From NCBI RefSeq assembly GCF_007747215.1, contig NZ_CP036273.1, forward strand, positions 4,386,322 to 4,450,321: 64,000 bases of DNA, in the 5' to 3' direction. The translations under genes were made by a program, and so were the position numbers. Every line of letters starts with the position of its first letter. The first letter of the stretch is position 1. Of the stretch, positions 6,955 to 58,520 are shown piece by piece. The stretch comes from Urbifossiella limnaea (lineage in GTDB: Bacteria; Planctomycetota; Planctomycetia; Gemmatales; Gemmataceae). The notes under the pieces were generated by a model that worked only from the letters and a program-made list of their open reading frames with translations, ran no database searches and was not told the DNA's origin.

Positions 6955-9900
6955 CTACGGAGGCGTTGCCTCTTCCTGGACGCGGTTACCCCAGAGAGAT
7001 AGGATCGCTTGTGTGATAGGTTCGGGGACTACGTTCCCTGATGACATCGGTGCCCAGTTCTTGGTGAACTTCGCCTCTCTTACGATTTCTTCCCGCGGGA
7101 TCTCCTTCCCGATTGGTAGGAAAGAGTCCAGACTCAGCTCGACAACACGGGTGCCGTCGTCGTCGAAGGGCTCACTCGTCACGATGCCTTTAGCAAAGAC
7201 GCCATTATGCGCGTTACCGGTGCGCTGCATAATGGCGACGTCGCCGGGCCGCGGCCTTGTCGATGGGCAAATCCACTGACTGGAATATGGCTGTCCCAAT
7301 AGAGCATTTCGCTGCACTTCATCGTAGTCCGCGAATGAATTTGGGTCGAGCTTGGGATTCCAGAGGAAGAAGTAAACCGTCCTTGTCGGGTTGGGGTTAG
7401 GTGTCCCCGTGCCTTGAGCAGCAACACGCGAGCTGGATTTCGATATGCGCTGTACTTCCGAGGAGGATGTCGCATCGGCAACTGGCGCCGATTGTTCACC
7501 GAACGATGGGTGATAGATAGTACAGTCCGGCCGTGCGTCGCTGAGGCGGGAAGCACCGGCTGGAGTAACGCTGGTTCCAGTCAAATTCAGGAGTTCCAGG
7601 GGCTTCATCGCTATCAAGTGATCGACGCTCGCGTCGGTCACTCCGAGGCAGTTCTCCAAATTGAGAGATTCCAACACTGGCGCGGATTTAAGTGCAACTA
7701 TTCCGAGGTCCGTCACCATCGTGTCCGACAGGTCCAGCAATTCCAAACTCGTCATCCTTGCCATCCAGGATAACCCACTGTCCGAGACATGCTTACAGCC
7801 CGTTAGCCGGAGATCCCGTAACTTCTGCATCTTGGCCAACTGCGCCAGGCCAGTCTCCGTGATCTGTGTGCCCCCGAGGTCGAGAAACCAGAGCTCGGAT
7901 AACTTCAGGAGGTGAATCATCCCGTCGTCGCTGATGTTCGTGCCGGGGAGCCCGAGCGCCTCCAGTCGTGACAGCCCGGTGAGGGTAGACAGGCCGGCAT
8001 CGGTGATCGGCAGTTGGTCGAGTCCGAGCGTTTGCAAGTGAGGCAACGGTGAGAGCCAAACGAGTCCGGCATCGCCGATGTCACTGCCTCCCAGCCGGAG
8101 GTCAACCAGAGTTCGCATTGCCCGCACATGCGCGAGGCCGGCATCGGTAACCGTGGTCTCTTCGATGTCTAGTGTTTCGAGCTGCGGCAGCATGGTGAAC
8201 AGCTTCAGGGTGGCGTCCGTCGCGGAAGATTGCGGGAGCAGCAGCGTCCGTACCTGCGTTAACTTTGCCGCGAGCGCGAACCCATCGTTTGTTAGCCGCT
8301 TGCATCCGGTCAGGTCGAGTTCGTTCAGTGCTTCGACATCAACCAAGGTTGCCAGGCCCTGAACGTTTGCGTCTTTCGCACTTCGCATGATGTCGAGTTT
8401 GTACACCTCGCCGGCTCGCACCTTGACCTTTGCAGGCAATTTGGTGACGAGCTTCCATCGGGCGAATGGCTTTACCTCCCGGTTCATCCGCCAGTTCCCT
8501 GAAACGGCTACGTGCAACTCCCGCTCGACGACCGCAGAGAGTTCGTCTGGGAGAAGCTTGACCGCCGTCCCTGTGAGAAGTCCGAGCCGTCGGAGTGCCT
8601 CATTTACCGGACGCCGCAGGGTGAACGCAGTGTGGCCGCTATCTGGATCGCGCTCGGCTGCCCACCCGGCGAGGACATACAACCAAAAACCGCGCGGAGG
8701 CTGCTTGACCCCAAGTCGTGCCGCAATCCGTGCTGCCAGTTTGCCGTACTGGAGGTTGACAGCGCTACCGTTAGCGTACCCGACTTCCGCCGCGAGTCGC
8801 GCCCACGTCGCCGTGTGGTCCGGGGCCGCGTAGTGCTTCCGAAGCAGGTCGAGATGTATATCGGGGATGCCCTCGGCAAGTACTGCTTCAAACGCCCGCA
8901 GGTAGTCGTCGGTGGTTCCGAACTCCTCGTCGTCCACCGGGAGCATTGAAGATTGATGTGCTACGGCTGGGGTATCTGTTGAGACGGGCTCGCTCTCGTT
9001 CTCGCGATTGACGGTGGGTTCCACTTTCGGAGTGGGCTTCGCGTCAATCGCCGAGATCGGTGGCAGTGGGAAGGGAGCGACAGGTGTGGCAACAGGCGGG
9101 GCCGTTGGCGGAACCGTCACAGCGCCGGACGCGAGAGGCGCCAATTCGGCAGCCAGGTCCGCCGCGGTCGCGGGGCGGCGGGCGGGGTTCTGCGCGACGC
9201 ACCGGCCGATGAGGTCGACCAGCGGGGGCGGCGTCCCGACATCGGCGAGGTCGTGCGCGTAGTCCGGCCCCGGCCCCTGGGAGAGGTGGCCGGTCAGCAT
9301 CTGGTATGCGATCACCCCCAGGGCGTGAACGTCGTCGCGCGGGTCGGGGTCGGCCCCGGCGCGTTGCTGGGGGCTGGCGTATAGCGGGGTGTGTGACCCG
9401 CGGTGCGACGAGAGCATCCGCCCGCCCTGAGTTGCCCCTCCGCTTCCGTCCTCTGCAAGAGTCGCTTTCGCCGTCACCGCCCCGATGCCGAAGTCCGTCA
9501 CTCGCAGCCGCTTCCCGGCCCGGTCGTAGAGGATGTTGCTCGGCTTCAAGTCCCTGTGGACGACGGCCGGGGTGAGGCGGTGAAACGCCCCGACCGCCGT
9601 GGCGATCTGCCGCAGAGCTTGAACGACGTACTTCAGCCGCTCCCCCGCGGGCCGCCGGTGCAGGTGGCGAATCCAGTCGCCCACGTCGCCGCCGTCCACG
9701 TAGTCGAACCGCAGCCAGGGGGTGTCGCCGGTCAGCACCGCGTCGCGGAGGGGGACGACCGACGGGTGGTCGCCCGCCCGCATCACCTGCGCGATGACCC
9801 GGCTCTCGTGCCGCAGATCCGCCGCCTGGGGGCCGTGGCAGAACTTGACCGCCGCCTCCACGCCCATGTCGGTGTGCCGGGCCAGCCACACCTCACCGAA

Positions 9901-10383
9901 CCCCCCGACCCCGAGGACGCGGTCGAGGTGCCACTCCGGGCGTCCAACCAGGGCGTCTCCCGGATGAAACCGCGGCGGGCGGGGAGGGAGTAACCGCAAC
10001 ACGTCGTCCGGTGTGGTCAGAGTAAACGCGGCCGGGACCGTCTTGCCGGTGGGATCGCTGGGCCGCTTGAGGGACTGGGTCACAGCCGCGGGGATTTGCG
10101 CGAGGTACGATTCAAGCACCAGCCTTTCTTCGACACTCGCCCCGCCAGCGGCTGCTTGGACGGCTTCGGCAGCTGCCTTCCGGGCCTCCGTAGCGGTAAC
10201 AGCCGCCATCCGCGCGATCTCATCGCGGAGTGCGGCGTCACGAATCCGCTCTCGATACTTGGCGAGTGCGCCGCCCGCGACGGCTAAGGCGAACGAGCCG
10301 CCAGGGACCATCGTGGCCAGCCCTTTCACCCCGTTCTCAACGACTGCTTCAGCCACGCAGCTGAAGAACGTAAACACAGGCAT
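6955..10383 (-). CDS. Ser/Thr kinase - McrA-head-like domain - LRR - EVE/PUA-like fusion
   Basis: A 1142-residue fusion. Residues 1-100: hydrophobic and Ala-rich helical start. 150-415: Hanks-type kinase with Gly loop GVGGFGEV (158-165), Lys180, HRDLK (276-280) and DFG (297-299), so probably active. 415-485: Pro-rich linker. 487-603: a helical domain (LLRKHYAAPDHTATWARLA, VGYANGSAVNLQYGKLA) that I recall as the N-terminal head of McrA/HNH-type modification-dependent nucleases. 680-950: about eleven leucine-rich repeats of 24-25 residues with AGL-HL-LP-L spacing. 1002-1131: VYFFLWNP, then WICPSTRPRPGDVAIM and KNWAPMSSGN, resembling EVE/PUA-like domains seen in HNH and McrBC-type restriction proteins. 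No nuclease is present. The 3' half is visibly richer in A+T than the kinase part. Domain names are by eye; the kinase is certain. Confidence 0.85.
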   Translation of the reverse strand: MPVFTFFSCVAEAVVENGVKGLATMVPGGSFALAVAGGALAKYRERIRDAALRDEIARMAAVTATEARKAAAEAVQAAAGGASVEERLVLESYLAQIPAAVTQSLKRPSDPTGKTVPAAFTLTTPDDVLRLLPPRPPRFHPGDALVGRPEWHLDRVLGVGGFGEVWLARHTDMGVEAAVKFCHGPQAADLRHESRVIAQVMRAGDHPSVVPLRDAVLTGDTPWLRFDYVDGGDVGDWIRHLHRRPAGERLKYVVQALRQIATAVGAFHRLTPAVVHRDLKPSNILYDRAGKRLRVTDFGIGAVTAKATLAEDGSGGATQGGRMLSSHRGSHTPLYASPQQRAGADPDPRDDVHALGVIAYQMLTGHLSQGPGPDYAHDLADVGTPPPLVDLIGRCVAQNPARRPATAADLAAELAPLASGAVTVPPTAPPVATPVAPFPLPPISAIDAKPTPKVEPTVNRENESEPVSTDTPAVAHQSSMLPVDDEEFGTTDDYLRAFEAVLAEGIPDIHLDLLRKHYAAPDHTATWARLAAEVGYANGSAVNLQYGKLAARIAARLGVKQPPRGFWLYVLAGWAAERDPDSGHTAFTLRRPVNEALRRLGLLTGTAVKLLPDELSAVVERELHVAVSGNWRMNREVKPFARWKLVTKLPAKVKVRAGEVYKLDIMRSAKDANVQGLATLVDVEALNELDLTGCKRLTNDGFALAAKLTQVRTLLLPQSSATDATLKLFTMLPQLETLDIEETTVTDAGLAHVRAMRTLVDLRLGGSDIGDAGLVWLSPLPHLQTLGLDQLPITDAGLSTLTGLSRLEALGLPGTNISDDGMIHLLKLSELWFLDLGGTQITETGLAQLAKMQKLRDLRLTGCKHVSDSGLSWMARMTSLELLDLSDTMVTDLGIVALKSAPVLESLNLENCLGVTDASVDHLIAMKPLELLNLTGTSVTPAGASRLSDARPDCTIYHPSFGEQSAPVADATSSSEVQRISKSSSRVAAQGTGTPNPNPTRTVYFFLWNPKLDPNSFADYDEVQRNALLGQPYSSQWICPSTRPRPGDVAIMQRTGNAHNGVFAKGIVTSEPFDDDGTRVVELSLDSFLPIGKEIPREEIVREAKFTKNWAPMSSGNVVPEPITQAILSLWGNRVQEEATPP

Positions 10384-11974: not shown

Positions 11975-12643
11975 ATGTGCGGCCGGTACACGTTGTCGTC
12001 CAGGCCCGAGGACATCGCCCGGACGTTTGACCTGTACCAGCAACCTGACCTCCTGCCCCGGTACAACGTCGCCCCCGCCCAACTGGTCGCCGTCGTCGCC
12101 CTCAAGGGGGACGGCAAGACACGCGGCCTGGCGCAACTCAGGTGGGGGTTCGTGCCGTACTGGGCGAACGACCCGAACTCCGGGCCGAGGCCCATCAACG
12201 CCAGGGCCGAGACGGTCGCGTACAAGCCGCCCTTCGACCACGCCTTCCGCGAACGCCGATGTCTCATCCCGGCCGACGGGTTCTTCGAGTGGGCCAAGGT
12301 CGGCACGAAGAAGGTCGGGCACCACCTCCGGTTGAAAGCCGGCGGCGTGATGGCGTTCGCCGGCGTCTGGGACGTGTGGAAGGCCGAGGGACGACCCACG
12401 TTGGCGACGTGCGCCATCATCACCGTGGCCGCGAACGAGCTGGTCAAGCCCTTCCACGACCGGATGCCGGCAGTCATCACGCCGGAGAAGTTCGACCTGT
12501 GGATGGGGTTCGACACCCCGGCGCGTGACCTCCTGGGGGCGCTCGCCCCTCTGCCTGCCGAGCAACTGGAGGTCGTTCGGGTCGGCCCGGCGGTGAACAA
12601 GGTGACCAACGACACCCCCGCGTGCGTCGCCCCGGCCGCGTGA
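11975..12643 (+). CDS. SRAP-domain protein (YedK/HMCES family)
   Basis: A 222-residue complete SRAP protein. This family shields abasic sites in single-stranded DNA by forming a covalent bond through its N-terminal Cys. The sequence starts MCGRYTLSS, so Cys2 is ready after Met removal. Further hallmarks are RYNVAPAQ (about residues 29-36), LRWGFVPYW, NARAETV (Asn and Glu of the active site), RCLIPADGFFEW (about 93-104), FAGVWD, and the late HDRMPAVI (about 160-167). Length is normal. A cut-off second SRAP start occurs at 16086. Confidence 0.92.
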   Translation: MCGRYTLSSRPEDIARTFDLYQQPDLLPRYNVAPAQLVAVVALKGDGKTRGLAQLRWGFVPYWANDPNSGPRPINARAETVAYKPPFDHAFRERRCLIPADGFFEWAKVGTKKVGHHLRLKAGGVMAFAGVWDVWKAEGRPTLATCAIITVAANELVKPFHDRMPAVITPEKFDLWMGFDTPARDLLGALAPLPAEQLEVVRVGPAVNKVTNDTPACVAPAA

Positions 12644-16085: not shown

Positions 16086-16244
16086 ATGTGCGGGCGGTAC
16101 ACACTGACAGCCGGGTGGGGCGAGGTCGCCAACGAGTTCGGCCTGCCCGAACCGCTCGGTGCCGTCACAGCCCTGCCGCCGCGGTACAACATCGCTCCCT
16201 CGCAGGCGGTGCCGGTCGTCGGATCACGCCGCCGCTACTCGTAG
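16086..16244 (+). pseudogene. truncated SRAP gene at the island boundary
   Basis: Begins MCGRYTLTAGWGEVANEFGL, continues with RYNIAPSQAVPVVG and then loses similarity at SRRRYS, ending in TAG at 16242-16244. Only the first 46 or so of about 220 residues of a SRAP protein remain; the WGxxPxW, NARAE and HxRMP parts are missing. The break, near 16225, is about 100 bases before the first gene of the DISARM operon, so it probably marks where foreign DNA joined. The missing 3' part is not found after the island. Confidence 0.8.
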
Positions 16245-16326
16245 GATACTTGCACTCCGCAGACAACACCCGAACGGACGGCTGGCATCGTCAACCGCCT
16301 TCGGTGGCGGAGTCGAGGATGGCAAG

Positions 16327-18351
16327 ATGGCGAATCCACCACCAGCACAATCCGGCCTGTTCGCCGATGCCCCGTTTGCGTTCGCCGACCGCTTCTTGCA
16401 GGACCACGCCGGGCAGATCATTAGCGAACCCCGCACGGCGATCCTCGAACTGATAGCCAACTCCTACGACGCCGGGGCAACGAAAATCGACCTCGTATGG
16501 CCGAACGAGAAGGGCCAGAAGTTCTCGGTCACGGACGACGGCATCGGGATGACCAAGGCCGAGTTCGAGAGACGGTGGCGCACCCTCTGCTACGATCGGG
16601 AGGCCGAGCAGGGGAACGCAGTCGTCTTCCCGAAAGGCGTCAGGGGGATCAAACGGACGGCGTTCGGGCGCAGTGGCAAGGGCCGTCACGCCCCGTTCTG
16701 CTTTGCCGACTCGTATGAAATCGCCACCATGAAGGACGGCGATCTGATCCAGGTTCGAGTCGGTCTGGCGAGTTCCGGGACGACGCCGTTCGAGATCACA
16801 CTGCTCGCAGAGTCGAAGAAGCGGGGACACGGCACGGAAATCTCCGCCGTCCTCGAAAAACACCTGCTCGGCGTCGATGAACTGAAGCAGTTGATCGGCT
16901 CGAAGTTCATCGTGGACCCGTCGCTCTGCATCCGGGTGAACCAGCAGTCGGTCGAACTGATGTCCCTCGAAGGACTGAAGACGACCGAGATCATTGTCGA
17001 GGGCCACGGTGCGGTCACGATCCACTTCATTGATTCCATCGAGCATTACCGGAGCGCCAGGCTCCGTGGGATCTCTTGGTGGGTCAACCAGCGGCGGGTC
17101 GGCGAACCAAACTGGGACCGGCTTGACGACGAGGGCGCTTACCTCGACGGGCGGACGGAACATGCAAAAAAGTTCAGCTTCATCGTGATGGCCGACTTCC
17201 TGACCCCCGGGCAGGATGTGAAGGCAGACTGGTCCGACTTCCACGCCAACCAGCGGACGAACGCCGTCCGTGACGCCGTGCATCGGTACGTCATCAAGGA
17301 GATTCAGGCGCAGTTGGCGACGACCCGAAAGGAGCGGAAGAAGTCGGCCATCGAGAACAGCCGGGAGTTGATGGGGGAACTCCCCACGATCTCGAAGAAC
17401 ACCATCGGCCAGTTCATTGACGAAGTTCAAGAGAAGTGTCCTACCATGTCCGACCGTGACCTGTCACGCACCGTGCAGGTCTTGGCGAAGCTGGAGCAAA
17501 GCCGTTCCGGTTACGACCTGTTGACGCAGTTGGCCGCCTGCTCGCCGGACGACCTCGACACCTGGAACTCGTTGATGCAGCGGTGGACGGCCAGTAACGC
17601 CGAGATCGTGCTGGACGAGCTTGATCGTCGGTTGAAGCTGATTGGCCGCATGGAGAAGTTGGTCGAGAACCCGCTGGCGGACGAACTCCACGACCTCCAG
17701 CCGCTTTTCGAGCGGGGGCTGTGGATATTCGGCCCGGAGTTCGAGTCGGTCGATTTTCGCTCGAACCGAGGGTTGGCGGAAGTCATCGGCAGGTTTCTCG
17801 GCGGGGCGGACTACAAGCCGCCGAAGCGCAGGCCAGATTTCGTGGCCCTGCCGGAAAGCACCATCGGGGCTTACTGCGCCGACGCCTACGACACGGGGGG
17901 CGAAATTTGCGGCATCCGAAAGGTCGCCATTCTGGAACTCAAGAAGGGCGGCTACTGCGTCACGCAGAAGGAAGCGGACCAAGCCCGTGACTACGCCAAG
18001 GAGATTCGCAAGGCCGGTCGTGTCCAGGCGGCGACAGAGATTGTGGCCTACGTCCTCGGCGCTACGCTGGAGGACGGCCTCGAATCGGCGGACTACGGCG
18101 ACACCACCCACATCATCCCGATGATCTACCAGACCGTCCTCCGCAAAGCGCACCAGCGGACGTTCAACCTCCAGAAGCGACTGCTGGAAGCCCTGCCATC
18201 ATTGGCGTCGGACCCGGAAGTGGATGAAGTGCTGCGGGTCGATGCACAACAGAAGTTATTCGATGGCTCGGTGCCGAAGCATCACATGCCGACGCCGAAC
18301 GGAGTTGACCGGCCCGCTCCGGCAACCGTTGAGCCAGGGGGCGGCGCATGA
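16327..18351 (+). CDS. GHKL ATPase with C-terminal PD-(D/E)XK nuclease-like domain, DISARM-linked
   Basis: A 674-residue protein. Residues 25-330 are a GHKL (Hsp90/MutL/histidine kinase-type) ATPase: N-box LELIANSYDAGA (about 40-51), G1 box VTDDGIGM (about 68-75) and a second Gly-rich region GRSGKGRHAP. Residues 330-480 are helical. Residues 480-620 look like a restriction-enzyme fold: PDFVAL (Asp504) and then VAILELKKGGYC (Glu537-x-Lys539), the D...ExK metal site, similar in style to Shedu/DUF4263 nucleases. The ATG at 16327 follows GAGG. The stop overlaps the start of drmD by four bases (ATGA), so the two are translationally coupled. It is not one of the named core DISARM genes; role as an added sensor/nuclease is inference. 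Confidence 0.8.
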   Translation: MANPPPAQSGLFADAPFAFADRFLQDHAGQIISEPRTAILELIANSYDAGATKIDLVWPNEKGQKFSVTDDGIGMTKAEFERRWRTLCYDREAEQGNAVVFPKGVRGIKRTAFGRSGKGRHAPFCFADSYEIATMKDGDLIQVRVGLASSGTTPFEITLLAESKKRGHGTEISAVLEKHLLGVDELKQLIGSKFIVDPSLCIRVNQQSVELMSLEGLKTTEIIVEGHGAVTIHFIDSIEHYRSARLRGISWWVNQRRVGEPNWDRLDDEGAYLDGRTEHAKKFSFIVMADFLTPGQDVKADWSDFHANQRTNAVRDAVHRYVIKEIQAQLATTRKERKKSAIENSRELMGELPTISKNTIGQFIDEVQEKCPTMSDRDLSRTVQVLAKLEQSRSGYDLLTQLAACSPDDLDTWNSLMQRWTASNAEIVLDELDRRLKLIGRMEKLVENPLADELHDLQPLFERGLWIFGPEFESVDFRSNRGLAEVIGRFLGGADYKPPKRRPDFVALPESTIGAYCADAYDTGGEICGIRKVAILELKKGGYCVTQKEADQARDYAKEIRKAGRVQAATEIVAYVLGATLEDGLESADYGDTTHIIPMIYQTVLRKAHQRTFNLQKRLLEALPSLASDPEVDEVLRVDAQQKLFDGSVPKHHMPTPNGVDRPAPATVEPGGGA

Positions 18352-21300
18352 CGACGGCAACCTCCCCGCACCCCGAACTGGGGCAGATGGTCAGCGTCCG
18401 GTCCCGCAACTGGATGGTCACGGACGTTTCTGCCAGCACGCTGCCACCCGAACGCCTTCAAGCCGGCCTGGAGTCGCCCCAGCATCTCCTCACGCTCTCG
18501 TCGGTCGAGGACGACGGCTTGGGCGAAGAACTCAACGTCATTTGGGAGCTTGAGCCGGGGGCCAGGGTCATCGAGAAGGTGGCCCTGCCCGACCCCACCG
18601 GGTTCGACGCGCCCGACCGCCTCGACGCCTTCCTCGATGCCGTCCGCTGGGGCGCGTCCTCGTCGGCGGACGTGCGGACGATCCAAGCCCCGTTCCGCTC
18701 CGGCATCGACATTGAGGACTACCAACTCGACCCGGTGGTGCGGGCCATCCAGATGCCACGGGTCAACCTCCTGGTCGCCGACGACGTGGGCCTCGGCAAG
18801 ACCATCGAGGCGGGCATGGTGGCGCTCGAACTCATCATCCGCCACCGCACCCGGAAAATCCTCATCGTCTGCCCGGCCCCGCTCCAGGTGCAGTGGCAGG
18901 AGCAGATGCGGGACAAGTTCGGCCTCGACTTCCGCATCGTGAACTCGGCCCTGATGGGCGTGCTGCGCCGCAGCCGGGGCATCCACGTGAACCCGTGGAA
19001 TCACTTCCCCCGGCTCATCACCAGCATCGATTTCCTCAAGCGGGAGCGCCCGCTGCGGCGGTTCCGGGAACTGTTGCCGGGGCCGGACGAGCCGGCCTTC
19101 CCTCGTAAGTTCGACCTGATGATTCTTGACGAGGCGCACAACTGTGCCCCGTCCGGCGTGGGCCGGTACGCCACGGACTCGCAGCGGACCCAGGCGCTCC
19201 GGCTGCTCGTCCCGCACTTTGAACACAAGCTGTTCCTTACGGCCACCCCCCACAACGGCTACCCAGAGAGCTTTTCGGCCCTGCTCGAACTGCTCGACAA
19301 CCAGCGGTTCGCCCGCAGCACGCCGCCCGACCGCAAGCAACTCAATGCGGTGATGGTCCGCCGCATGAAGTCGGAGTTGCCGCCGAAGTGGGACGGCTCG
19401 CCCCGGTTCCCGAAGCGGGTGCTGGACCCCATCGAAGTCCCCTACACCGACGAGGAGCGGGCCGTTCACGCTGCGTTGCGTCAGTACGCCGACCTCCGGG
19501 TGGAGCGGTCCCAGGACAACGCCGAGAAGCTGGCGACCGAGTTCGTCCTGAAGACCCTCAAGAAGCGCCTCTTCTCCAGCCCGGCGGCGTTCCTGACGAC
19601 CCTCGACCAGCACGAGAAGTCGCTGCGGATGGCGAAGCGGGGCAAGGCCGTCCGCAAGCCGTCCGTCGGCATCTTGAAGCAGGAACTCGACCGGGTGGAC
19701 GAGGACTACGCCGACGACGGCGAGTACGACGAGGCGATGACCGACGCCGTGGACGCCGCCTCGCTGCTGTTCACCGAGCCGTCCCCGGACGAACTGGCCC
19801 TCCTCCGGCAGATGCGAACCTGGGCGGAAAAGGCGAGCGGGCAACTCGACTCGAAGGTGAACTGCCTGATCGACTGGCTGAACGCCCACCTGCGCCCCGG
19901 CAAGAAGTGGGGCCACGAGCGGGTCATCATCTTCACCGAGTACCGGGCCACGCAGAACTGGCTGCTGGAAATCCTCGCCCAGCGGGGGTTCACGGGCGGC
20001 GAGCGGCTGCTGACCATGTACGGCGGCATGGACTCCGAGGAGCGGGAGGAGGTCAAAGCCGCCTTCCAGTCGGCCCCGGACATCAGCCCGGTGCGCATCC
20101 TGCTCGCCACCGACGCCGCCGCCGAGGGGCTGAACCTCCAGAACCACTGCTGTCGGCTGATCCACTACGAAATCCCGTGGAACCCGAACCGGCTGGAGCA
20201 GCGGAACGGGCGGATCGACCGGCACGGGCAGAAGGGCTTCCTCGCCGACACCGGCGAGCGGCAGGTGTTCGTATACCACTTCGTCGGCCAGGGCTACAAG
20301 CAGCGGCAGCACTCGGCCTTCTCGGCGAAGGCGGCGGACCTGGACGCCGACCTGGAGTTCCTGATGCGGGTGGCGAAGAAGGTCGAGACGATTCGGGAAG
20401 ACCTGGGCAGCTACGGCACGGTGCTGGCCGATGACGTCGAGCAGGCGATGCTCGGCCGGGGGTACTCGATGCCGGGCGTGGGCCGGGCCGACGCCAAGGT
20501 CGAACCCGTGCGGAAGATGCTGAAGTTCGAGCGGGATTTGGCGAAGCAGATCGGCGACCTGCTGGAGCAGTACCGGGAGACGCAGCGGGAGCTTCGGTTG
20601 TCCCCGGAGAACGTCCGCAAGGTGGTCGAGGTCGGGCTGGCCCTCGCCGAGCAACCCGCCTTGATCCCGCTGACCCACCCGTCCGGCAAGCCGGTCTTCA
20701 CCCTCCCCGACCTGAAGCACAGTTGGGCGGCGTGCGCCGAGGGGCTGGAGCATCCGCACACGAAGGCCGTCCGCCCGATCACGTTCGACCACGCCGCCGC
20801 CGACGGGCGCGACGACCTCGTGTTGGTCCACCTGAACCACCGGCTCGTGCAGATGAGCCTGCGGCTGCTGCGGGCGGAAGTCTGGTCGTTGAAGGGTCGG
20901 AAGCGGCTGCACCGGATCACCGCCCGCACCGTGCCGGACCACGCCCTCAACGTGCCTGCGGTGGTGGCCCACGCCCGGCTGGTCGTGATCGGCGGCGACA
21001 GCCACCGGCTGCACGAGGAGATCATCACGGCGGGCGGGCTGCTCAAGGAGGGCCGCTTCTCCCGCATGAACCTCAGCGAGTTGGACAACGTGCTGGCGGC
21101 GGCCACGGGCGACGAACCCGCCGAGCCGATGCGGACCCACCTGCTCGACCTGTGGGACAAGTTCGCCCCGCCGCTGGCGACCGCCCTCGAAGCACGAATG
21201 AGGGACCGGACCACCGGCCTCCAGAAAAAGCTCGGCGAGCGGGCCGACAAGGAGGCCGACGACATCCGGGCGATCCTGCTCGAACTGAAGAAGGCCATCG

Positions 21301-21533
21301 ACGCCGAACTCGCAGAGCAGGCGAGCCACCAGCCCACCCTGTTCGATGACTTGGAAACCGACCAATTCGAGCGGAACAGGGACTTCCTGCGGGCGAGGTC
21401 GAAGACGATCCCCGCCGAGATCGAGCGGGAGACGGCGGCGGTCAAGTCCCGCTTCGCCGACCCGCAGCCCCGGATGTTCCCCGTGGCAGTAACGTTCCTC
21501 GTGCCGGAACGGTTAGCGAGGGCAGACCGATGA
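18348..21533 (+). CDS. drmD: DrmD, SNF2-like helicase of class 1 DISARM
   Basis: A 1061-residue SNF2-family ATPase. Walker A is DDVGLGKTIEAG (about residues 145-156), Walker B/DEAH is LMILDEAHN (257-265), motif III is FLTATPH. The C-terminal RecA lobe has VIIFTEYRATQNWL, TDAAAEGLNLQ and motif VI LEQRNGRIDRHGQ. The last 350 residues are helical and charged. The protein is the length expected of DrmD, the class 1 DISARM helicase, and the order of downstream genes supports that name. It begins in a four-base overlap with the GHKL gene and ends in another with the next gene (ATGA at 21530), so it sits inside one operon. DISARM restricts phage DNA using methylation to mark self. Confidence 0.9.
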   Translation: MTTATSPHPELGQMVSVRSRNWMVTDVSASTLPPERLQAGLESPQHLLTLSSVEDDGLGEELNVIWELEPGARVIEKVALPDPTGFDAPDRLDAFLDAVRWGASSSADVRTIQAPFRSGIDIEDYQLDPVVRAIQMPRVNLLVADDVGLGKTIEAGMVALELIIRHRTRKILIVCPAPLQVQWQEQMRDKFGLDFRIVNSALMGVLRRSRGIHVNPWNHFPRLITSIDFLKRERPLRRFRELLPGPDEPAFPRKFDLMILDEAHNCAPSGVGRYATDSQRTQALRLLVPHFEHKLFLTATPHNGYPESFSALLELLDNQRFARSTPPDRKQLNAVMVRRMKSELPPKWDGSPRFPKRVLDPIEVPYTDEERAVHAALRQYADLRVERSQDNAEKLATEFVLKTLKKRLFSSPAAFLTTLDQHEKSLRMAKRGKAVRKPSVGILKQELDRVDEDYADDGEYDEAMTDAVDAASLLFTEPSPDELALLRQMRTWAEKASGQLDSKVNCLIDWLNAHLRPGKKWGHERVIIFTEYRATQNWLLEILAQRGFTGGERLLTMYGGMDSEEREEVKAAFQSAPDISPVRILLATDAAAEGLNLQNHCCRLIHYEIPWNPNRLEQRNGRIDRHGQKGFLADTGERQVFVYHFVGQGYKQRQHSAFSAKAADLDADLEFLMRVAKKVETIREDLGSYGTVLADDVEQAMLGRGYSMPGVGRADAKVEPVRKMLKFERDLAKQIGDLLEQYRETQRELRLSPENVRKVVEVGLALAEQPALIPLTHPSGKPVFTLPDLKHSWAACAEGLEHPHTKAVRPITFDHAAADGRDDLVLVHLNHRLVQMSLRLLRAEVWSLKGRKRLHRITARTVPDHALNVPAVVAHARLVVIGGDSHRLHEEIITAGGLLKEGRFSRMNLSELDNVLAAATGDEPAEPMRTHLLDLWDKFAPPLATALEARMRDRTTGLQKKLGERADKEADDIRAILLELKKAIDAELAEQASHQPTLFDDLETDQFERNRDFLRARSKTIPAEIERETAAVKSRFADPQPRMFPVAVTFLVPERLARADR

Positions 21534-22393
21534 GAAGACTTTGGCTCGTCGGGGAATCGCTGCCCCTGAAGGAAGACGGAACACAGCGCAAGGCCCGTGA
21601 AGCCGCTGGGCTACCGCCGACCTTAGTGCCCCTCGACCCCCGTCACGGCGTCTTCCCGAATCTCGTGATGAAGCCGTTGTTCGCCGCCGGGTACGCCCTG
21701 TCCCAGAGCCACGCCGACCAACTGCTGAACTTCTTTCAGGAGATGAAGGAGGTCGTGTCCGACCATTCAGGAAGACGGTTCAACTTCTTTGACAACCGCC
21801 CGACCCGGCCCAAGGGGCGGGGAAAAGAGGCTGCACCCGAAAACCTCGGGACGGATCAATTCGCCGTCCCCGACGAGGACATGACGGTACGGATCAAGTC
21901 GTTCGACACCCTCAACACGCTCTGGCTGGTCTTTGGTCACCAGACGAACTTCGGCCTGCTCTGGTGGCTCGTGGACAAGGCGGCGGCCGATAAGCCGACC
22001 AAGGTCCAGATCAAGAAGTTCTCCGAGCAGTTCGTAAATGCCGTCTGCGATTGCTCGCCCGCCCACGCTGGGGGCGGCTACGGACAACTGTCGAGCCGGA
22101 TCGGGTTGCTCCATCGCCTCTGCACGGGGGCCGACACCCGCTTGACGCTGGAGGCCGCCGTCTCGAAACTCAATCCGGTCGGCCCCTTCTCGTTGACTCG
22201 GATCAGCGAGGTAATGCGTGCCACGGTGCCCCTGCTCCACAACGAAGGGTATCAGGACGGGACGAATCCGACAGGGAACGCCCAGGGGCATTTCGTCCGT
22301 CTGGCGAAGGGCAAAGTCGATGTAGGAGACCTCTACTGGCAGGTGATGGGTAACGCCATCGCCACTCGGATCATGGACGGCTTCGTGGAGTAA
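21530..22393 (+). CDS. unknown protein inside the DISARM operon
   Basis: A 287-residue soluble protein starting MRRLWLVGESLPLKED and translationally coupled to drmD by a four-base overlap; drmMI follows directly. It has an NFFQEMKEV helix, a Trp-rich segment TLWLVFGHQTNFGLLWWLVD (about residues 127-146), and a C-terminal part ending WQVMGNAIATRIMDGFVE. No Walker, HKD, nuclease or methylase motif is visible. It is not among the named class 1 DISARM core genes (drmD, drmMI, drmA, drmB, drmC) as I know them. Its fixed position suggests an accessory subunit, perhaps bridging helicase and methylase; this is inference. Confidence 0.75.
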   Translation: MRRLWLVGESLPLKEDGTQRKAREAAGLPPTLVPLDPRHGVFPNLVMKPLFAAGYALSQSHADQLLNFFQEMKEVVSDHSGRRFNFFDNRPTRPKGRGKEAAPENLGTDQFAVPDEDMTVRIKSFDTLNTLWLVFGHQTNFGLLWWLVDKAAADKPTKVQIKKFSEQFVNAVCDCSPAHAGGGYGQLSSRIGLLHRLCTGADTRLTLEAAVSKLNPVGPFSLTRISEVMRATVPLLHNEGYQDGTNPTGNAQGHFVRLAKGKVDVGDLYWQVMGNAIATRIMDGFVE

Positions 22394-25300
22394 TTGCCCT
22401 TGTCCGTCACCCGCCACCACAACGACTGGCTACGCCTCGTGCCGAACTCAGGCCCGTTCCTGAGCCTGCCGGTGCTGGCACTGACGTTCCCACAAGGGCT
22501 GAACGCCCACGACGCCGAACACGCCCGGCGGCTGCGGCAGGCGTTCGGCGAGTGGGACGATGACCAGTTGGGGCAGCGGCCCGATCCGGTCTTGCACCGG
22601 GCGTGGGTCCGGTTCGTGTTGGGGGAGACGCTGGGCTACGACGAACTGCTCGCCGAGGGGCAGGAGATACCGCAATCGCTCCAGAGCGAAGAGGCCCAAT
22701 ACGGCGAGACGCTGCGCCCCGACTGGATCGTCACCGACCCGGCCACGAAGAAGGCCCGGTTGCTCGTGCAGTTCTACCCCCGGACACAGCCGCTCACGAA
22801 GCCAGTGGCAACGTCCCGGTGGAAAACTTCGCCCGACACCCGGATGACGCAACTGCTCAACGACACCGGCATCCGCCTCGGCCTCGTCACCAACGGCCAC
22901 GACTGGATGCTGGTGAACGCTCCGAAGAACGAGACGACCGGGTACGCCAGCTGGCGGGCGGACCTCTGGCTGGAAGAGCCGGTCACGCTCCGGGCCTTCC
23001 GCACACTGTTGTCCGCCGACCGCTTCTTCAGCGTGCCGGACGCCGAAACGCTCGACCTCAAGGGCGGGTTGCTCGACCAGAGCCAGAAGGACCAGCAGGA
23101 AGTCACCGACCAGCTCGGCTACCAAGTCCGCAAGGCCGTCGAGGTCGTGATCCAGGCGCTCGACAAGGCCGACCAGGACCACGGGCGGGAGCTGCTCGCC
23201 GACGTGAACGAAAAGGTGCTTTACGAATCCGCCCTCACCGTCATGATGCGGCTGGTGTTCCTGTTCTGTGCCGAGGAGCGGGAACTGCTGCTGCTGGGCG
23301 ACGAACTGTACGACAAGAACTACGCCGTCAGCACCCTGCGGGAGCAATTGCGGCTCACGGCGGACGAGTTCGGCGAGGAAATCCTCGGCCTGCGGTACGA
23401 CGCCTGGACCCGGCTGCTGACCACCTTCCGGGCCGTCTATGCCGGGGCCAAGCACGACCGGCTCAGGCTCCCGGCCTACGGCGGCAGCCTGTTCAACCCC
23501 GACCGCTTCCCGTTCCTCGAAGGCCGCAAGGCGGGGACGAGTTGGAGGACCACCCCGGCCACGCCGCTGCCGGTGAGTAACCGGACGGTGCTGCACCTGC
23601 TCGAAGCGTTGCAAGTACTGCAAACGAAAGTCGGCAAGACCATCGAAGCCCGATCGCTCAGTTTCCGGTCCCTCGACATCGAGCAGATCGGCCACGTCTA
23701 CGAAGGGTTGCTCGATCACACCGCCAAGCGTGCCAGCGAGCCGATGCTGGGGCTGGCCGGGACAAGGGACCGGGAACCGGAGATCGCCCTGGCCGACCTG
23801 GAGAAGATCGCCGCCAGTGGGGAGAGGGAACTGCTCCGCTTCCTCAAGGACGAGATGGGCCGCTCGGAGCCGGCGCTAAAGAAGGCGCTTGCAGCCGAAC
23901 TAGGCGACCAACCCGCCAGCCGGTTCCGCACCGCCTGTCAGGACTCGACCTTGTGGAGTCGGGTGAAGCCGTATGCCGGGCTGGTGCGGTTCGATACGGT
24001 CGGCTACCCGGTCGTCATTACGACGGGGAGCGTCTTCGTCACGGCGGGGAGCGACCGCCGTAGCACCGGCACGCACTATACGCCGAAGCCGCTGACAGTA
24101 CCCATCGTGCAGTACACGCTGGAGCCGCTAGTGTTTGTCGGTCCCGCAGAAGGGTTGCCCAAGGAGCAGTGGACACTACGCCCGGCCAAGGAACTGCTCG
24201 CTCTGAAAATCTGCGACATGGCCTGCGGTTCCGGGGCGTTCCTCGTGCAAACCTGCCGCTACATGGCCGCTCGGTTGCTCGAAGCCTGGGACGCCGTGCA
24301 GCGGGCCAATCCCGGCACGGTACACATCACGCCTGAGGGTGAAGCCTCGAACGGCAAACCCGGCGAGATGTTGATCCCCGACGATCCCGATGAGCGGATG
24401 ACCTACGCCATGCGGATTGTCGCCCAACGCTGCTTGTACGGCGTGGACAAGAATCCGCTTGCTGTCGAGATGGCGAAGCTGTCGCTCTGGTTGCTCACGC
24501 TCGCCAAAGACAAGCCGTTCGAGTTTCTGGATCACAACATCCGGTGCGGCGATTCGCTCGTCGGCCTGAGCAACATCGAGCAACTTCGTTCGTACAGCCT
24601 CCAACCCGACGAGCCGAACTCGATCAAGTTTTCCGGCCCGCTTGATGCCGCCGTGGACGAGACGATCAGCCTGCGGCTCAAGCTCGGAGACCTGCCGTCG
24701 AACACGGTCGAAGATGTCGAGCGGCAGGAGAAGCTACTTAAGGAAGCCAACGAGAAGATTGCCCGGTTGCGGTGTGCGGCGGACTTGCTCGTGGCCGGGG
24801 AGTTCTGGGGCGAGAACTACAAGGACAAGGCCGAACGAGTGGGACACAACGCCGTCCGCTCGGGGCACTACGTCGAAAATGGGCCAATTGAGGAGTTCGA
24901 GCAAGTCGCCGCCAAGGAATGCCGTGGACAGTTAATGTTTCATTGGCCGCTAGAATTCCCTGAGGTAATCGTGAAGCGTGGTGGCTTCGATGCGTTCGTG
25001 GGCAATCCGCCGTTTTTGGGGGGTTCCAGAATCTCCGGCACGTTTGGGGATCGCTATCTGGCGATACTTCTCTCGCAGTTCGAGAAATCAAACGGAAACG
25101 CCGATATTTGTTCATTCTTTCTTCGTCGTGCTGCGAATCTCATTTCAGCTCAAGGATGCTCAGGATTTATTGCAACAAATTCAGTTGCGAAGGGGGAGAC
25201 AAGAACAAGTGGCCTCCAGTGCCTCCTTGATTCAGGCGGCCAACTCATTCGTGCGACACGCTCACGACCTTGGCCGGGGACGGCCAATGTGTTCATAAGT

Positions 25301-26446
25301 GAAATCCACTTCTATTTCGGGCCGTGGAAGGGAACGTGCGTCTTGGATGGAAGCGATGTGTCGGGCATTTCTTCTTTCCTTGACGCACATGCAGCGCCTT
25401 TTTTGCCGTACCGTCTCGCCCAAAATCATGGGTTAGTATTCCGTGGTCCGACAGTTGGCGGAGAGGGATTTATCTTGACCTCGGAAGAACGTGATCGGAT
25501 AGTCTCGCTCGATCCGAGATCGAGCGATGTCATTTTTCCGTTCCTGACAGGACAAGATATCAATCAAGACTACCAGCAATCTTCAGATAGATTCGCAATC
25601 GATTTTGCCGATCGGGCAGAATCGGAAGCTTCAAAGTACACGGCTTGTTGGAGCCGCCTGTCTGCGACTGTTAGAATACAGCGGCAGGGCAACAAGATAC
25701 CCCAGCGTGAAAAATACTGGTGGCGATATATCGGTCGCCAGGAGAAGCTGTACGAGGCCATCAAGGGCTTTCCTGTTGCTTTGACCTGCGGTGAAGTCTC
25801 AAAGTATTGGAGTGTATCCTGGGTGTCACCACATCAGGTTTTTGCAGGCAAAGTGGTGGTTTTTGCCCTCTGTGGCAATGGCAACTTTGCGGTGCTGAGT
25901 TCGTGTTTTCATACTGAGTGGGCCGAGAAGACGGCATCTCGATTGAAAGGTGATCCGGCTTACAGCTTGGCGGACACCTTTGAGACGTTTCCATTCCCGA
26001 TTTCTCTAAATGGGCTGGAAGCTATCGGCGAGCATTACCACGCCCATCGCAAGCGGATCATGCTCTCCCGGAAAGATGGCCTGACAACGACCTACAATCG
26101 CTTCCACAATCCTGAAGAAGCCAGCGACGACATCCAGAATTTCCGAGAGCTGCACGTCGAGATAGATCGAGCGGCAGCCGCCGCCTACGGCTGGGCCGAC
26201 CTCAACCTCGATCACGCTTTCCATGAGACGAAGCATGGCATCCGTTACACGATTAGCGAAGCAGCCCGGCGAGAAGTTTTGGCCCGGCTACTGTCATTGA
26301 ATCACGAGCGGTACACCGCTGAAGTGAGGCAAGGTCTGCACGAGGCAAAGGCCAAGCGTCCCGCCACGAACAAGCCAAAAGCGACGACTACCCAGCAAAG
26401 TGCCGCAGTCAAGCCGTCCCTCTTCGCCGCTGCGGAGGACGAATGA
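22394..26446 (+). CDS. drmMI: DrmMI, adenine-specific DNA methyltransferase of DISARM
   Basis: A 1350-residue Eco57I/type IIG-like N6-adenine methylase. The AdoMet motif CDMACGSGAFLVQ starts near residue 606 and the catalytic motif NPPFLGG near 870. The N-terminal 550 residues are a helical and nuclease-type region without a sure active site; the C-terminal 450 residues should hold the target-recognition part. In DISARM, DrmMI methylates host DNA so that self is spared. Start is TTG 22394, directly after the TAA of the preceding gene; a second TTG lies six bases on. Bases from about 24900 to 26000 are clearly richer in A+T than the rest of the operon, suggesting the specificity half was exchanged. 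Confidence 0.88.
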   Translation: MPLSVTRHHNDWLRLVPNSGPFLSLPVLALTFPQGLNAHDAEHARRLRQAFGEWDDDQLGQRPDPVLHRAWVRFVLGETLGYDELLAEGQEIPQSLQSEEAQYGETLRPDWIVTDPATKKARLLVQFYPRTQPLTKPVATSRWKTSPDTRMTQLLNDTGIRLGLVTNGHDWMLVNAPKNETTGYASWRADLWLEEPVTLRAFRTLLSADRFFSVPDAETLDLKGGLLDQSQKDQQEVTDQLGYQVRKAVEVVIQALDKADQDHGRELLADVNEKVLYESALTVMMRLVFLFCAEERELLLLGDELYDKNYAVSTLREQLRLTADEFGEEILGLRYDAWTRLLTTFRAVYAGAKHDRLRLPAYGGSLFNPDRFPFLEGRKAGTSWRTTPATPLPVSNRTVLHLLEALQVLQTKVGKTIEARSLSFRSLDIEQIGHVYEGLLDHTAKRASEPMLGLAGTRDREPEIALADLEKIAASGERELLRFLKDEMGRSEPALKKALAAELGDQPASRFRTACQDSTLWSRVKPYAGLVRFDTVGYPVVITTGSVFVTAGSDRRSTGTHYTPKPLTVPIVQYTLEPLVFVGPAEGLPKEQWTLRPAKELLALKICDMACGSGAFLVQTCRYMAARLLEAWDAVQRANPGTVHITPEGEASNGKPGEMLIPDDPDERMTYAMRIVAQRCLYGVDKNPLAVEMAKLSLWLLTLAKDKPFEFLDHNIRCGDSLVGLSNIEQLRSYSLQPDEPNSIKFSGPLDAAVDETISLRLKLGDLPSNTVEDVERQEKLLKEANEKIARLRCAADLLVAGEFWGENYKDKAERVGHNAVRSGHYVENGPIEEFEQVAAKECRGQLMFHWPLEFPEVIVKRGGFDAFVGNPPFLGGSRISGTFGDRYLAILLSQFEKSNGNADICSFFLRRAANLISAQGCSGFIATNSVAKGETRTSGLQCLLDSGGQLIRATRSRPWPGTANVFISEIHFYFGPWKGTCVLDGSDVSGISSFLDAHAAPFLPYRLAQNHGLVFRGPTVGGEGFILTSEERDRIVSLDPRSSDVIFPFLTGQDINQDYQQSSDRFAIDFADRAESEASKYTACWSRLSATVRIQRQGNKIPQREKYWWRYIGRQEKLYEAIKGFPVALTCGEVSKYWSVSWVSPHQVFAGKVVVFALCGNGNFAVLSSCFHTEWAEKTASRLKGDPAYSLADTFETFPFPISLNGLEAIGEHYHAHRKRIMLSRKDGLTTTYNRFHNPEEASDDIQNFRELHVEIDRAAAAAYGWADLNLDHAFHETKHGIRYTISEAARREVLARLLSLNHERYTAEVRQGLHEAKAKRPATNKPKATTTQQSAAVKPSLFAAAEDE

Positions 26447-29400
26447 ACCTCACCCTGAAGCCCTCCGTCTCACCGCTGCATCTGCGGGACGAACTGGAAA
26501 TGATGGTCCTCAAGGAACTGCTCGGCCCCGGTAGCGCCGAGGAGGAGATCATCGAGTCGCCCGGCACTCGCTACTTCGTCGGCGTGCTGGCCCCCCGCAG
26601 GCGGGCCACCCCCGCCGCCCCGCCCAAACCTGCCGCCGTCCTGCCCCCGCCCGACGACGATGACGGGGAGACGGACGGGGAAATCCTCGACGGCGACGAA
26701 CTGGCCTTGGGGGGCAAGGACACGACCCAGGACGGCACGACCGACCAGACGGCCTCCCAGGAACAGGCCAAGGCGCTCATCCCGTCCTCCTTCGGGATGA
26801 CCTTCTCGGTGAACCCGGAGGCCACGGAGATCGACGTGTCCGCCGCCTGGGGCCAGTACCTCCGGGAGAAGAGCGAATACCTCGTCAGCGAGAAGACCGG
26901 CAACCCCCGGCTGGTGTGGCGGCGGTATCCCCGTGGCGGCAAGCACCGGCTGCCCCTCGTCGCAGGCCCGCTCGCCCCGATTGTGGTCGATGCCAACTGC
27001 CCGGAGGTCGTCGTCCAGGGACTCGTCCGCAGGCGCACCGACCACTGGTGCGTCACCCTCTTCCTGGTGAACGAGCAGCAGGAGCCGGAGAAACAGAAGG
27101 ACACCGGCTGGGCGTTCCAGCCGGAACTGATGGCCGAGGGCGTCGGCGGGGCGGCGGTCATCCACAAGCGGCACACCGTCCTGGAACTGACCGGCACGGA
27201 CCCCGCCGTGAAGGGGGAGAACGACCTGCTGGCGATGATCTACCGGCGGCACGTCGAGTTCGCCGTGGGGCACGGGATCGGCGTCCACGTCGATGGGTCC
27301 GCCGACCCGAACCACGCCGTCCGGGTGCGCACCAAGGTCGTGCCGACCTACGAGGTTCCCAAGACGACCCCGCCCCGGCCCGCCGACGCCGAGATCAACC
27401 CGGCCTTCGCCAAACTGGAGGGCATGGTCCTTGACATGAAGGCGCTGGCCGAGTCCAACCCGAAGCAGTTCCGCCCGAAACTCAAGCCGCTTGTGGACGC
27501 CTATCGGGACTGGATCGAGCGAGAGGAGGGGCGGATCGCCGACCCCGCCGAGGGGCTGGCCCACTTCCAGCACGCCGCCCAGCACACCATCGCCCGCTGC
27601 CGCACGACGCTGAAGCGGATCGAGGAGGGGCTGGACCTGCTCGACACGGACGACAAGGCGGCGCAGGCGTTCCAGTTCATGAACCGGGCGATGTGGCTCC
27701 AGCGGACGCACTCCCTGTTCGCCGAGCGGGTGCGGCGGGGCGACGAGAAGCCCGATATGGGGGCCATCGACAACCCGGACAACCGCTCCTGGTATCCGTT
27801 CCAGCTTGCCTTCGTCCTGCTGAACCTGCCGGGGATCACCAAGTTCGACCACCCCGAACGGAGCGAGTCGCCCGACGCCATCGCCGACCTGCTGTGGTTC
27901 CCGACCGGCGGCGGGAAGACTGAAGCGTACTTGGGCCTGACGGCCTACACCCTCGGCCTTCGCCGCCTGCAAGGGGTGATCGAGGGGCGCTCCGGCGAGA
28001 ACGGCGTCACCGTGCTGATGCGGTACACCCTGCGGCTCCTGACGCTTCAACAGTTCCAGCGGGCGGCGACACTCATCTGCGCCTCCGAGGACATCCGCCG
28101 CACGGCCCTGAGCAACGGCGACACCCGCTGGGGGAAGACGCCGTTCCGCATCGGCCTTTGGGTCGGCGGCAGCACGACCCCGAACTGGACCAGCGATGCG
28201 GACGAAGCGGTGAAGTCGGCCCACGGCGGCAAGCCGAGGTCGGGGGCGATGGGCGGCGTCGGGTCGCCCCACCAACTGACCAACTGCCCGTGGTGCGGCA
28301 CGAAGATCGACCCCGGCAAGCACATTAAGGTCGACAAGGAGGTGGGGCGGACGCTCGTCTTCTGCGGGGCCAAGTTTGGCCAGTGCAAGTTCTCGATGAA
28401 GGAAGCGCCCGGCGAGGGGCTGCCGGTGATGGTGGTGGACGAGGAGATTTACCGCCGCCTGCCGTCGTTGCTCATCACGACGGTGGACAAGTTCGCCCAG
28501 ATGCCGTGGAACGGGGCGGTGCAGATGCTGTTCGGGCAGGTGGACGGGTACTGCGAGCGGCACGGGTTCCGGTCGCCGGAGATCGAAGACGCCAACAGCC
28601 ACAATAAAAAGGGCGACCTTCCAGCGGCGAAGACAATCCCCCAGAACCCGCTGCGCCCGCCCGACCTTATCATCCAGGACGAGTTGCACCTCATCAGCGG
28701 GCCTCTCGGCACGTTGGTCGGTCTGTACGAGACGGCCGTCGACCACCTGTGTACCTGGGACGTGAACGGCACGAGGGTGCGGCCCAAGGTCGTGGCCTCG
28801 ACGGCGACCATTCGGAATGCGAAGGACCAACTCCACGCCCTGTTCCTGCGGCGGCTGGAGACGTTCCCCCCGAACGGTCTCGACATCCGGGACAACTTCT
28901 TCTCCCTCCAGCGCCCGTCGAGCGAGACGACGCCGGGTCGGAAGTACATCGGCATCTGTGCCCCCGGTCGGCGGCTCAAGGCGGCACTCATCCGGGTGTA
29001 CGTCGCCCTCCTATCCGCCGGGCAGGTGTTGTTCGAGAAGTACGGCCTGGACGCCGACCCGTGGATGACGCTGGTGGGCTACTTCAACAGCCTGCGAGAA
29101 CTCGGCGGCATGAAGCGGCTGGTGGACGACGACGTGCGCACCCGCCTCGGCAAGATGCAGGACCGGGGGCTGGCGAAGCGGAAGTTGTTCACGCCCGACA
29201 CGGTGAAGGAACTGACCTCCCGCCTGGGTTCGACGGCGATCCCCGAAACGCTCGACCTCCTCGAAGGCCGGTTCGACCCGGCGATCCTGGACGGGATCAA
29301 GGATCGGAAGAAGGGCGACGGGTTCGTCCACCGGCCCCTCGACGTGCTGCTCGCCACGAACATGATCTCGGTCGGGGTGGACGTGCCCCGGTTGGGCCTG

Positions 29401-30048
29401 ATGGTGGTGGGTGGCCAGCCGAAGACGACGGCGGAGTACATCCAGGCCAGCAGCCGGGTCGGGCGGAAGTTCCCCGGCCTCGTCTGCACCGTGTTCAATT
29501 GGGCGAGGCCACGGGACTTGTCCCACTACGAAACCTTTGAGCACTACCACTCGACCTTTTACAAGCACGTCGAGGCGTTGTCCGTGACGCCGTTCTCGGC
29601 GGGGGCGACGGCCCGTGGGCTGGCGGCGCTCCTGGTGGCGATGGTCCGGCAGCCGGGGGCCGCCTTCAACTCGAACGACAAGGCGATGCTGATGGCGACC
29701 CAGCGGGGCCACCAGTACGTCACCGCCGCCGTCGAGGCCATCACGAGGCGGGCCGAACTGATCGCCGGGGTGGAAGCCGCCGAGGAGGTCCGGCAGCAAC
29801 TCAAGCGGAAGATGGACCTGTGGCAGAAGCGGGCGCAGCGGACGGCCCAGGGGAACCAGCTCGGGTACGAGACGAAGAAGGACGGGGTGACGGTCGGGCT
29901 GCTCCGCAAGCCGAGCATCGAGTCGTGGGACGAGTTCACCTGCCTGAACTCGCTGCGGGACGTGGAGCCGACGGCGAACCTGATCCTCGACACCTTCGGC
30001 ATGGACGACGAGGGCGGCGACGAATCCGAGGAAGGAGCCTCCCCGTGA
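26443..30048 (+). CDS. drmA: DrmA, DISARM helicase
   Basis: A 1201-residue superfamily 2 helicase. Walker A is FPTGGGKTEAYL (about residues 486-497); motif II is PDLIIQDELHL (DELH, about 740-750); a four-Cys zinc site starts CPWCGTKID near 616 and continues FCGAKFGQC. The C-terminal lobe carries LLATNMISVGVDVPRLGLM and motif VI IQASSRVGRKFPG. The N-terminal 450 residues are the long DrmA-specific region. The start overlaps the drmMI stop (ATGA) and the stop overlaps the drmB start (GTGA). DrmA works with DrmB as the core DISARM complex on foreign DNA. Confidence 0.92.
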   Translation: MNLTLKPSVSPLHLRDELEMMVLKELLGPGSAEEEIIESPGTRYFVGVLAPRRRATPAAPPKPAAVLPPPDDDDGETDGEILDGDELALGGKDTTQDGTTDQTASQEQAKALIPSSFGMTFSVNPEATEIDVSAAWGQYLREKSEYLVSEKTGNPRLVWRRYPRGGKHRLPLVAGPLAPIVVDANCPEVVVQGLVRRRTDHWCVTLFLVNEQQEPEKQKDTGWAFQPELMAEGVGGAAVIHKRHTVLELTGTDPAVKGENDLLAMIYRRHVEFAVGHGIGVHVDGSADPNHAVRVRTKVVPTYEVPKTTPPRPADAEINPAFAKLEGMVLDMKALAESNPKQFRPKLKPLVDAYRDWIEREEGRIADPAEGLAHFQHAAQHTIARCRTTLKRIEEGLDLLDTDDKAAQAFQFMNRAMWLQRTHSLFAERVRRGDEKPDMGAIDNPDNRSWYPFQLAFVLLNLPGITKFDHPERSESPDAIADLLWFPTGGGKTEAYLGLTAYTLGLRRLQGVIEGRSGENGVTVLMRYTLRLLTLQQFQRAATLICASEDIRRTALSNGDTRWGKTPFRIGLWVGGSTTPNWTSDADEAVKSAHGGKPRSGAMGGVGSPHQLTNCPWCGTKIDPGKHIKVDKEVGRTLVFCGAKFGQCKFSMKEAPGEGLPVMVVDEEIYRRLPSLLITTVDKFAQMPWNGAVQMLFGQVDGYCERHGFRSPEIEDANSHNKKGDLPAAKTIPQNPLRPPDLIIQDELHLISGPLGTLVGLYETAVDHLCTWDVNGTRVRPKVVASTATIRNAKDQLHALFLRRLETFPPNGLDIRDNFFSLQRPSSETTPGRKYIGICAPGRRLKAALIRVYVALLSAGQVLFEKYGLDADPWMTLVGYFNSLRELGGMKRLVDDDVRTRLGKMQDRGLAKRKLFTPDTVKELTSRLGSTAIPETLDLLEGRFDPAILDGIKDRKKGDGFVHRPLDVLLATNMISVGVDVPRLGLMVVGGQPKTTAEYIQASSRVGRKFPGLVCTVFNWARPRDLSHYETFEHYHSTFYKHVEALSVTPFSAGATARGLAALLVAMVRQPGAAFNSNDKAMLMATQRGHQYVTAAVEAITRRAELIAGVEAAEEVRQQLKRKMDLWQKRAQRTAQGNQLGYETKKDGVTVGLLRKPSIESWDEFTCLNSLRDVEPTANLILDTFGMDDEGGDESEEGASP

Positions 30049-48223: not shown

Positions 48224-48452
48224 CAAGGTGCTCTCGATACGACGCGACTGCCCCTGTCGCGCTGGACGATTCGATGTCGTGGGCGAAGGGCGGTTGAGTC
48301 ACACGGAAGTAGATGGTTATCAGATTATCACGGACCCCGAAGCGAAGTCCCGACAATTCACACGAGTGGCGCAGAGTCGACGGGCGGCAGCACGTTAGCG
48401 AACCCGGTGGTGCGGGCGACCGGCGGACGGGGGCGTCACCTCGACCTGCTCG

Positions 48453-54007: not shown

Positions 54008-58465
<4,458 letters not shown>

Positions 58466-58520
58466 GGCGGCCTCCGGGTTCTTGCGACGATCATATCGCG
58501 GAAACGGCCCCGGATTCGTC

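Follow-up and report, generated by a model that had tools for sequence, protein, structure and literature searches.

Type IV restriction combines a reader with a nuclease. The EVE-HNH endonuclease VcaM4I flips 5mC and 5hmC, and the flipped base is held by the residues P24, W82 and Y130, W82 replacing Y82 of the EVE structure 2eve (PMC7897488). Other published modification-dependent nucleases pair PUA, winged-helix and HNH domains (PMC11037411), and EVE domains also take part in EVE-McrB type IV restriction (PMC7641849). Among the defence Ser/Thr kinases, PglW likewise carries nucleic-acid-binding parts (PMC12839542). The Gemmataceae encode about 100 kinases per genome (PMC11032199). We analyzed a stretch of 64,000 nucleotides (hereafter the window) from the complete 7.8 Mb single-contig genome of Urbifossiella limnaea, in which one kinase can be compared with each of these systems.

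The protein is encoded by an ORF with an ATG start at 6955..10383 on the (-) strand, and its length (1142 aa), strand and coordinates are exactly those of a first-pass annotation made from the sequence alone. From the N- to the C-terminus, it comprises a domain of Gemmataceae type, a Ser/Thr kinase, a domain that we call the head, leucine-rich repeats (LRR), about eleven in number, and an EVE domain, all these features being on the (-) strand. The N-terminal domain (residues 1-147; 9943..10383), common to a large Gemmataceae kinase family, is a conserved domain additional to those of the annotation. The kinase domain (residues about 151-425; 9109..9933) exceeded the Pfam cut-off (Pkinase, E 8.4e-27, residues 152-368) and its motifs are intact, including the glycine loop GVGGFG, K180, HRDLKPSN (D278) and DFG (D297), in agreement with the apparently active kinase proposed at first pass. 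The following proline-rich linker (residues 426-486; 8926..9108) precedes the point at which the head (residues about 487-606; 8566..8925) is inserted in the alignment with the closest ortholog. Next come a pre-LRR segment (residues about 620-680; 8344..8526) kept in the LRR members of the kinase family, the LRR themselves (residues about 681-960; 7504..8343) and the EVE domain, of the PUA superfamily (residues about 1002-1140; 6964..7380). The LRR gave significant Pfam matches, and the repeat number given by the annotation was recovered by eye (about 11 repeats of 24 residues), eight start positions being found by regular expressions. No direct Pfam match was obtained for the head (487-603) or for the C-terminal domain (1002-1131). 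As the annotation had claimed, no nuclease domain was detected in the protein by Pfam and NCBIfam, which gave kinase and LRR families; the protein is thus not a type IV or modification-dependent restriction enzyme in the sense of one carrying its own nuclease. The third-position GC content was 0.90 in the kinase domain vs 0.54-0.71 in the other segments of 6955-10383, a mosaic that would fit replacement of the kinase domain by that of a different copy.

When the kinase protein was used as query, 86 places in the source genome were matched by its kinase or LRR part, and the C-termini of paralogs were variable (WD40, LRR, Sel1-like repeats, formylglycine-type and others). Two more large kinase-matching genes are located in the window at 54008-58654 and 44717-48226, one of them with about 19 WD40 repeats. 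A query combining the N-terminal domain and the pre-LRR segment had matches in 58 of the 95 genomes of the family, mostly to the N-terminal part. The protein is best described as a member of an expanded Gemmataceae family in which an N-terminal domain and a kinase are followed by freely exchanged C-terminal halves. This resembles the association of a kinase with variable C-terminal repeats in the expanded Gemmataceae kinases previously described, although the common partners named in the passages used here are WD40 and TPR, with no mention of an EVE fusion (PMC11032199).

G309:C77 was the closest ortholog of the kinase protein, with 75.5% identity over residues 3-419 and 51.5% over residues 620-956, and it consists of the kinase and the LRR without head and without EVE. 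Both modules are thus probably later additions; a gain in the source lineage is a simpler reading of the sequences than a loss in the G309 lineage, represented by this one relative. The sole head gene of G309 is located 1.1 kb from this kinase, in divergent orientation and with an RNA-binding-type ORF in between, and beyond it, in a type III-like restriction-modification locus, are a modification gene, a Fic gene and a Res-like gene. The probability of such nearness of head and kinase by chance was about 3e-4, for a single after-the-fact observation.

A direct search of 294 genomes of the phylum with the C-terminal domain recovered two relatives. L022 is an EVE-like ORF (E 1.5e-8), and in L023, a McrB-like protein with Mrr_N and AAA domains, the N-terminal part was matched (E 3.5e-5). 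On plasmids, the relatives of the domain belong to AAA proteins whose genes are followed by that of a restriction endonuclease. The likeness to EVE-McrB type IV restriction (PMC7641849) lies in these homologous EVE domains of McrB-like AAA proteins with a restriction endonuclease gene downstream, whereas the source protein has no AAA or McrC-type partner and its predicted output is a kinase activity. The EVE part of one plasmid homolog, the McrB-like protein P0003, passed the Pfam EVE cut-off (E 1.5e-8, 35.2 bits vs 23); the C-terminal domain of the kinase protein itself was below this cut-off, with no match to PF01878 at E 10. The 12 positions that are invariant in an alignment of five EVE sequences are all kept in the kinase protein. 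An AlphaFold2 model was obtained from a five-row alignment (pLDDT 81.5, pTM 0.76), for which Foldseek returned the EVE structure 2ar1 at the top, then other members of the PUA superfamily (ASCH, YTH), VcaM4I and 2eve. EVE structures also came at the top with VIA-align (2ar1, Z 12.0; 2eve, 10.7; human THYN1, 10.4; VcaM4I, 9.0). The EVE/PUA-like fold suspected at first pass can thus be considered secure for the modelled C-terminal domain. A profile of five EVE-like sequences had no match among the PDB sequences, and the match obtained later (E 1.5e-14) was partly by construction, the profile then including one canonical EVE sequence.

In a HMMER alignment (residues counted by hand), Y82 of 2eve corresponds to the W of a PHWD-like segment in the EVE relatives. 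The EVE domain of the kinase protein has EPFDDDGTRVV at this place, and the PHWD-like segment, with the pocket aromatic, is missing. Base reading may thus be altered or lost, and the missing segment, as judged from the alignment, counts against a 5mC reader. The PHWD-like segment is likewise missing in the EVE-HNH protein L190. A derivation of the kinase's EVE from the L190 lineage, both being without the loop, was considered and dropped since the tree shows no such grouping. In this EVE tree, the kinase protein's EVE forms a long divergent branch.

The head matched L025, a protein that also has an HNH domain (E 8e-13, confirmed by profile), and the HNH-bearing L030 (E 2.2e-10). Further matches were on plasmids, to the C-terminal end of a Nostoc protein that itself matches GmrSD_C and to a Pseudomonas gene adjoining an HNH gene and restriction-modification genes. 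These similarities place the head with HNH/GmrSD-linked proteins, a grouping based on sequence. Taken together, the domain matches of the kinase protein go far beyond what chance would produce. The first-pass annotation had compared it with the N-terminal head of McrA/HNH nucleases; homology to HNH N-terminal domains was indeed recovered, but no link to McrA itself (NEco) was found, either among the PDB sequences or in the structural lists. The head model (pLDDT 83.9) resembles MarR/ArsR winged helices, with a middling score for the best structural match (Z 7.5, rmsd 2.2 over 74 residues), and we describe the modelled domain as winged-helix-like, a modest assignment. Heads were also found as standalone genes. 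Those in G357, G358 and G588 have no evident defence locus around them, and none of the other standalone heads examined adjoins a kinase as in G309. Scanning genome contigs with the head, we obtained four loci, none with a kinase. In the Burkholderiales loci L084 and L085, the head is located at the C-terminus, behind a different conserved N-terminal segment.

Profile searches with the EVE domain and with the head were then extended to 397 Planctomycetia genomes. The EVE profile recovered 13 loci besides the kinase protein, and seven of them carry one HNH nuclease family (at one of these seven loci, the HNH is in a different reading frame); the others were two canonical EVE genes and short, truncated or decayed loci. 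With the head profile, 16 loci were recovered besides the kinase protein; of these, 11 carry this HNH family (in frame in 10 and across a stop codon in one) and five are standalone. Identity between the HNH parts of the head-HNH and EVE-HNH proteins was 44-49% for the closest examples and 26% for the most distant one aligned. The head and the EVE are alternatives to each other at the N-terminus of a single HNH nuclease family, which resembles modification-dependent (type IV) restriction enzymes. The kinase motif was present in none of the 13 EVE and 16 head loci of these 397 genomes. The proposal of the annotation that a kinase stands where relatives carry a nuclease holds at this level, head and EVE being joined elsewhere to a single HNH family. 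In the source genome, the kinase is the only protein with the head or with this type of EVE, one canonical EVE gene lying elsewhere, and we found a single protein with this kinase-head-LRR-EVE architecture. Scans of viral contigs gave few or no relatives, and phage records gave no match.

The kinase protein shares with the VcaM4I-type EVE-HNH enzymes (PMC7897488) the EVE fold, the same EVE type being joined to HNH in Planctomycetia, and differs from them by its kinase in place of the nuclease, by the C-terminal position of the EVE after the LRR and by the missing pocket segment. Like the PUA/winged-helix/HNH nucleases (PMC11037411), it combines a PUA-superfamily domain with a domain modelled as winged-helix-like, but it is devoid of HNH, and its head, without Pfam match, is not established as a winged helix of the DpnI/HhiV4I type. 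Its similarity to the defence kinases is limited to the kinase, the other domains being different, with 91.9 bits for the MADS kinase MAD6 (NCBIfam equivalog cut-off, 460) and 52.1 for PglW (cut-off, 990). The literature searched, a limited collection, contains no report of an EVE-kinase fusion, and the EVE survey names only histidine kinases, in context. Absent from this literature and from the other genomes searched, the fusion described here is apparently new.

Another kinase of the family, G309:C47 (706 aa; L177 5162-7198), has an N-terminal domain 57% identical to that of the source kinase. Its end domain shares 50% identity (E 7e-43) with the domain found at the C-terminus of plasmid DUF91 proteins. 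In Gemmatales, relatives of this end domain are joined to DUF91-, PLD- and GIY-YIG-like nuclease parts, the GIY-YIG and DUF91 calls being made by eye. Besides AbiU2, the locus includes an AAA gene, a PLD-like gene (weak RE_NgoFVII match) and a recombinase. These similarities identify G309:C47 as a putative second capture of a nuclease-associated domain by this kinase family. The end domain is not called EVE (hhalign probability 1.4%). A PLD-like nuclease gene with an end domain of the G309:C47 type (L175 12394-13665), close to a transposase gene, lies outside the window, about 3 kb to its left, and about 10 kb from the source kinase.

The window also contains a class 1 DISARM locus at 18348..31925 on the (+) strand, with drmD, a 287-aa gene without family, drmMI, drmA and drmB, DrmMI being an Eco57I/MmeI-like methylase. 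A GHKL ATPase-like gene (16159-18351) directly precedes drmD. The kinase and DISARM are on opposite strands, about 8 kb apart and in separate operons, and we regard this proximity as context, not as proof. Between them are an SRAP (SOS response-associated peptidase) gene at 11975-12643 and genes without family. When tested as a DISARM component, the kinase did not correspond to a drm gene and had kinase-only similarity among the PADLOC matches listed. Since Gemmataceae genomes encode so many kinases (PMC11032199), chance may have placed this one near defence genes.

We tentatively propose, giving it somewhat less than an even chance, that the protein is a DNA-sensing kinase produced by effector exchange, in which modules of a nuclease family are carried by a kinase-LRR core and phosphorylation is the output. 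We infer that an ancestral kinase-LRR protein would have gained the winged-helix-like head in the linker and the EVE at the C-terminus. The EVE, and probably the head, would bind DNA of a particular modification state and the LRR a protein partner; binding would bring kinases together and lead to autophosphorylation, and the kinases would then phosphorylate host or phage proteins, resulting in arrest or a defence response. The DNA would not be cut. Such a DNA-sensing kinase would probably act in phage defence or methylation surveillance. The narrower claim of a modification-dependent kinase, in which restriction readers would switch a kinase rather than a nuclease and nuclease-associated modules would have been captured at least twice by the family, is in our opinion unlikely.

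Alternatively, the head and the EVE could be generic nucleic-acid or protein binders accreted in ordinary signalling, with no role in defence. The many unrelated C-termini of the family kinases and the 86 matching places in the source genome would fit such an accretion, as would the missing pocket segment and the occurrence of EVE and PUA in housekeeping proteins, the source genome itself having a canonical EVE gene. We nevertheless consider it somewhat doubtful, since both modules derive from a single nuclease family of restriction type and were probably gained by one protein, and since related G309 loci adjoin restriction or abortive-infection genes. It is quite improbable that the modules read host methylation, the kinase reporting its loss or gain and guarding or tuning a restriction locus: DrmMI is indeed present in the window and an N6/N4 methylase (type III-like Mod) lies beside the G309 ortholog, but the kinase is outside the methylase operon, and neither DISARM nor type III loci are rare. 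Finally, if the head and the EVE were relics of a recombined restriction gene that no longer bind DNA, with only the kinase-LRR core at work, one could explain the long divergent EVE branch, the loss of the pocket segment and the lower third-position GC in EVE codons (0.65) than in the kinase (0.90). However, the added domains, some 260 residues in all, are read without interruption of the frame, the 12 invariant EVE positions are kept and confident folds are predicted for both modules, which makes this decay very unlikely.

The hypothesis of a DNA-sensing kinase gives a prediction clear enough for testing with one purified protein, and the search for kinases with nuclease-associated readers has already provided a second candidate, G309:C47. 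If the readers of one nuclease family indeed sit on a kinase, recognition of the state of DNA would be linked directly to phosphorylation signalling in bacteria, and the protein would represent a type of DNA-sensing receptor kinase.
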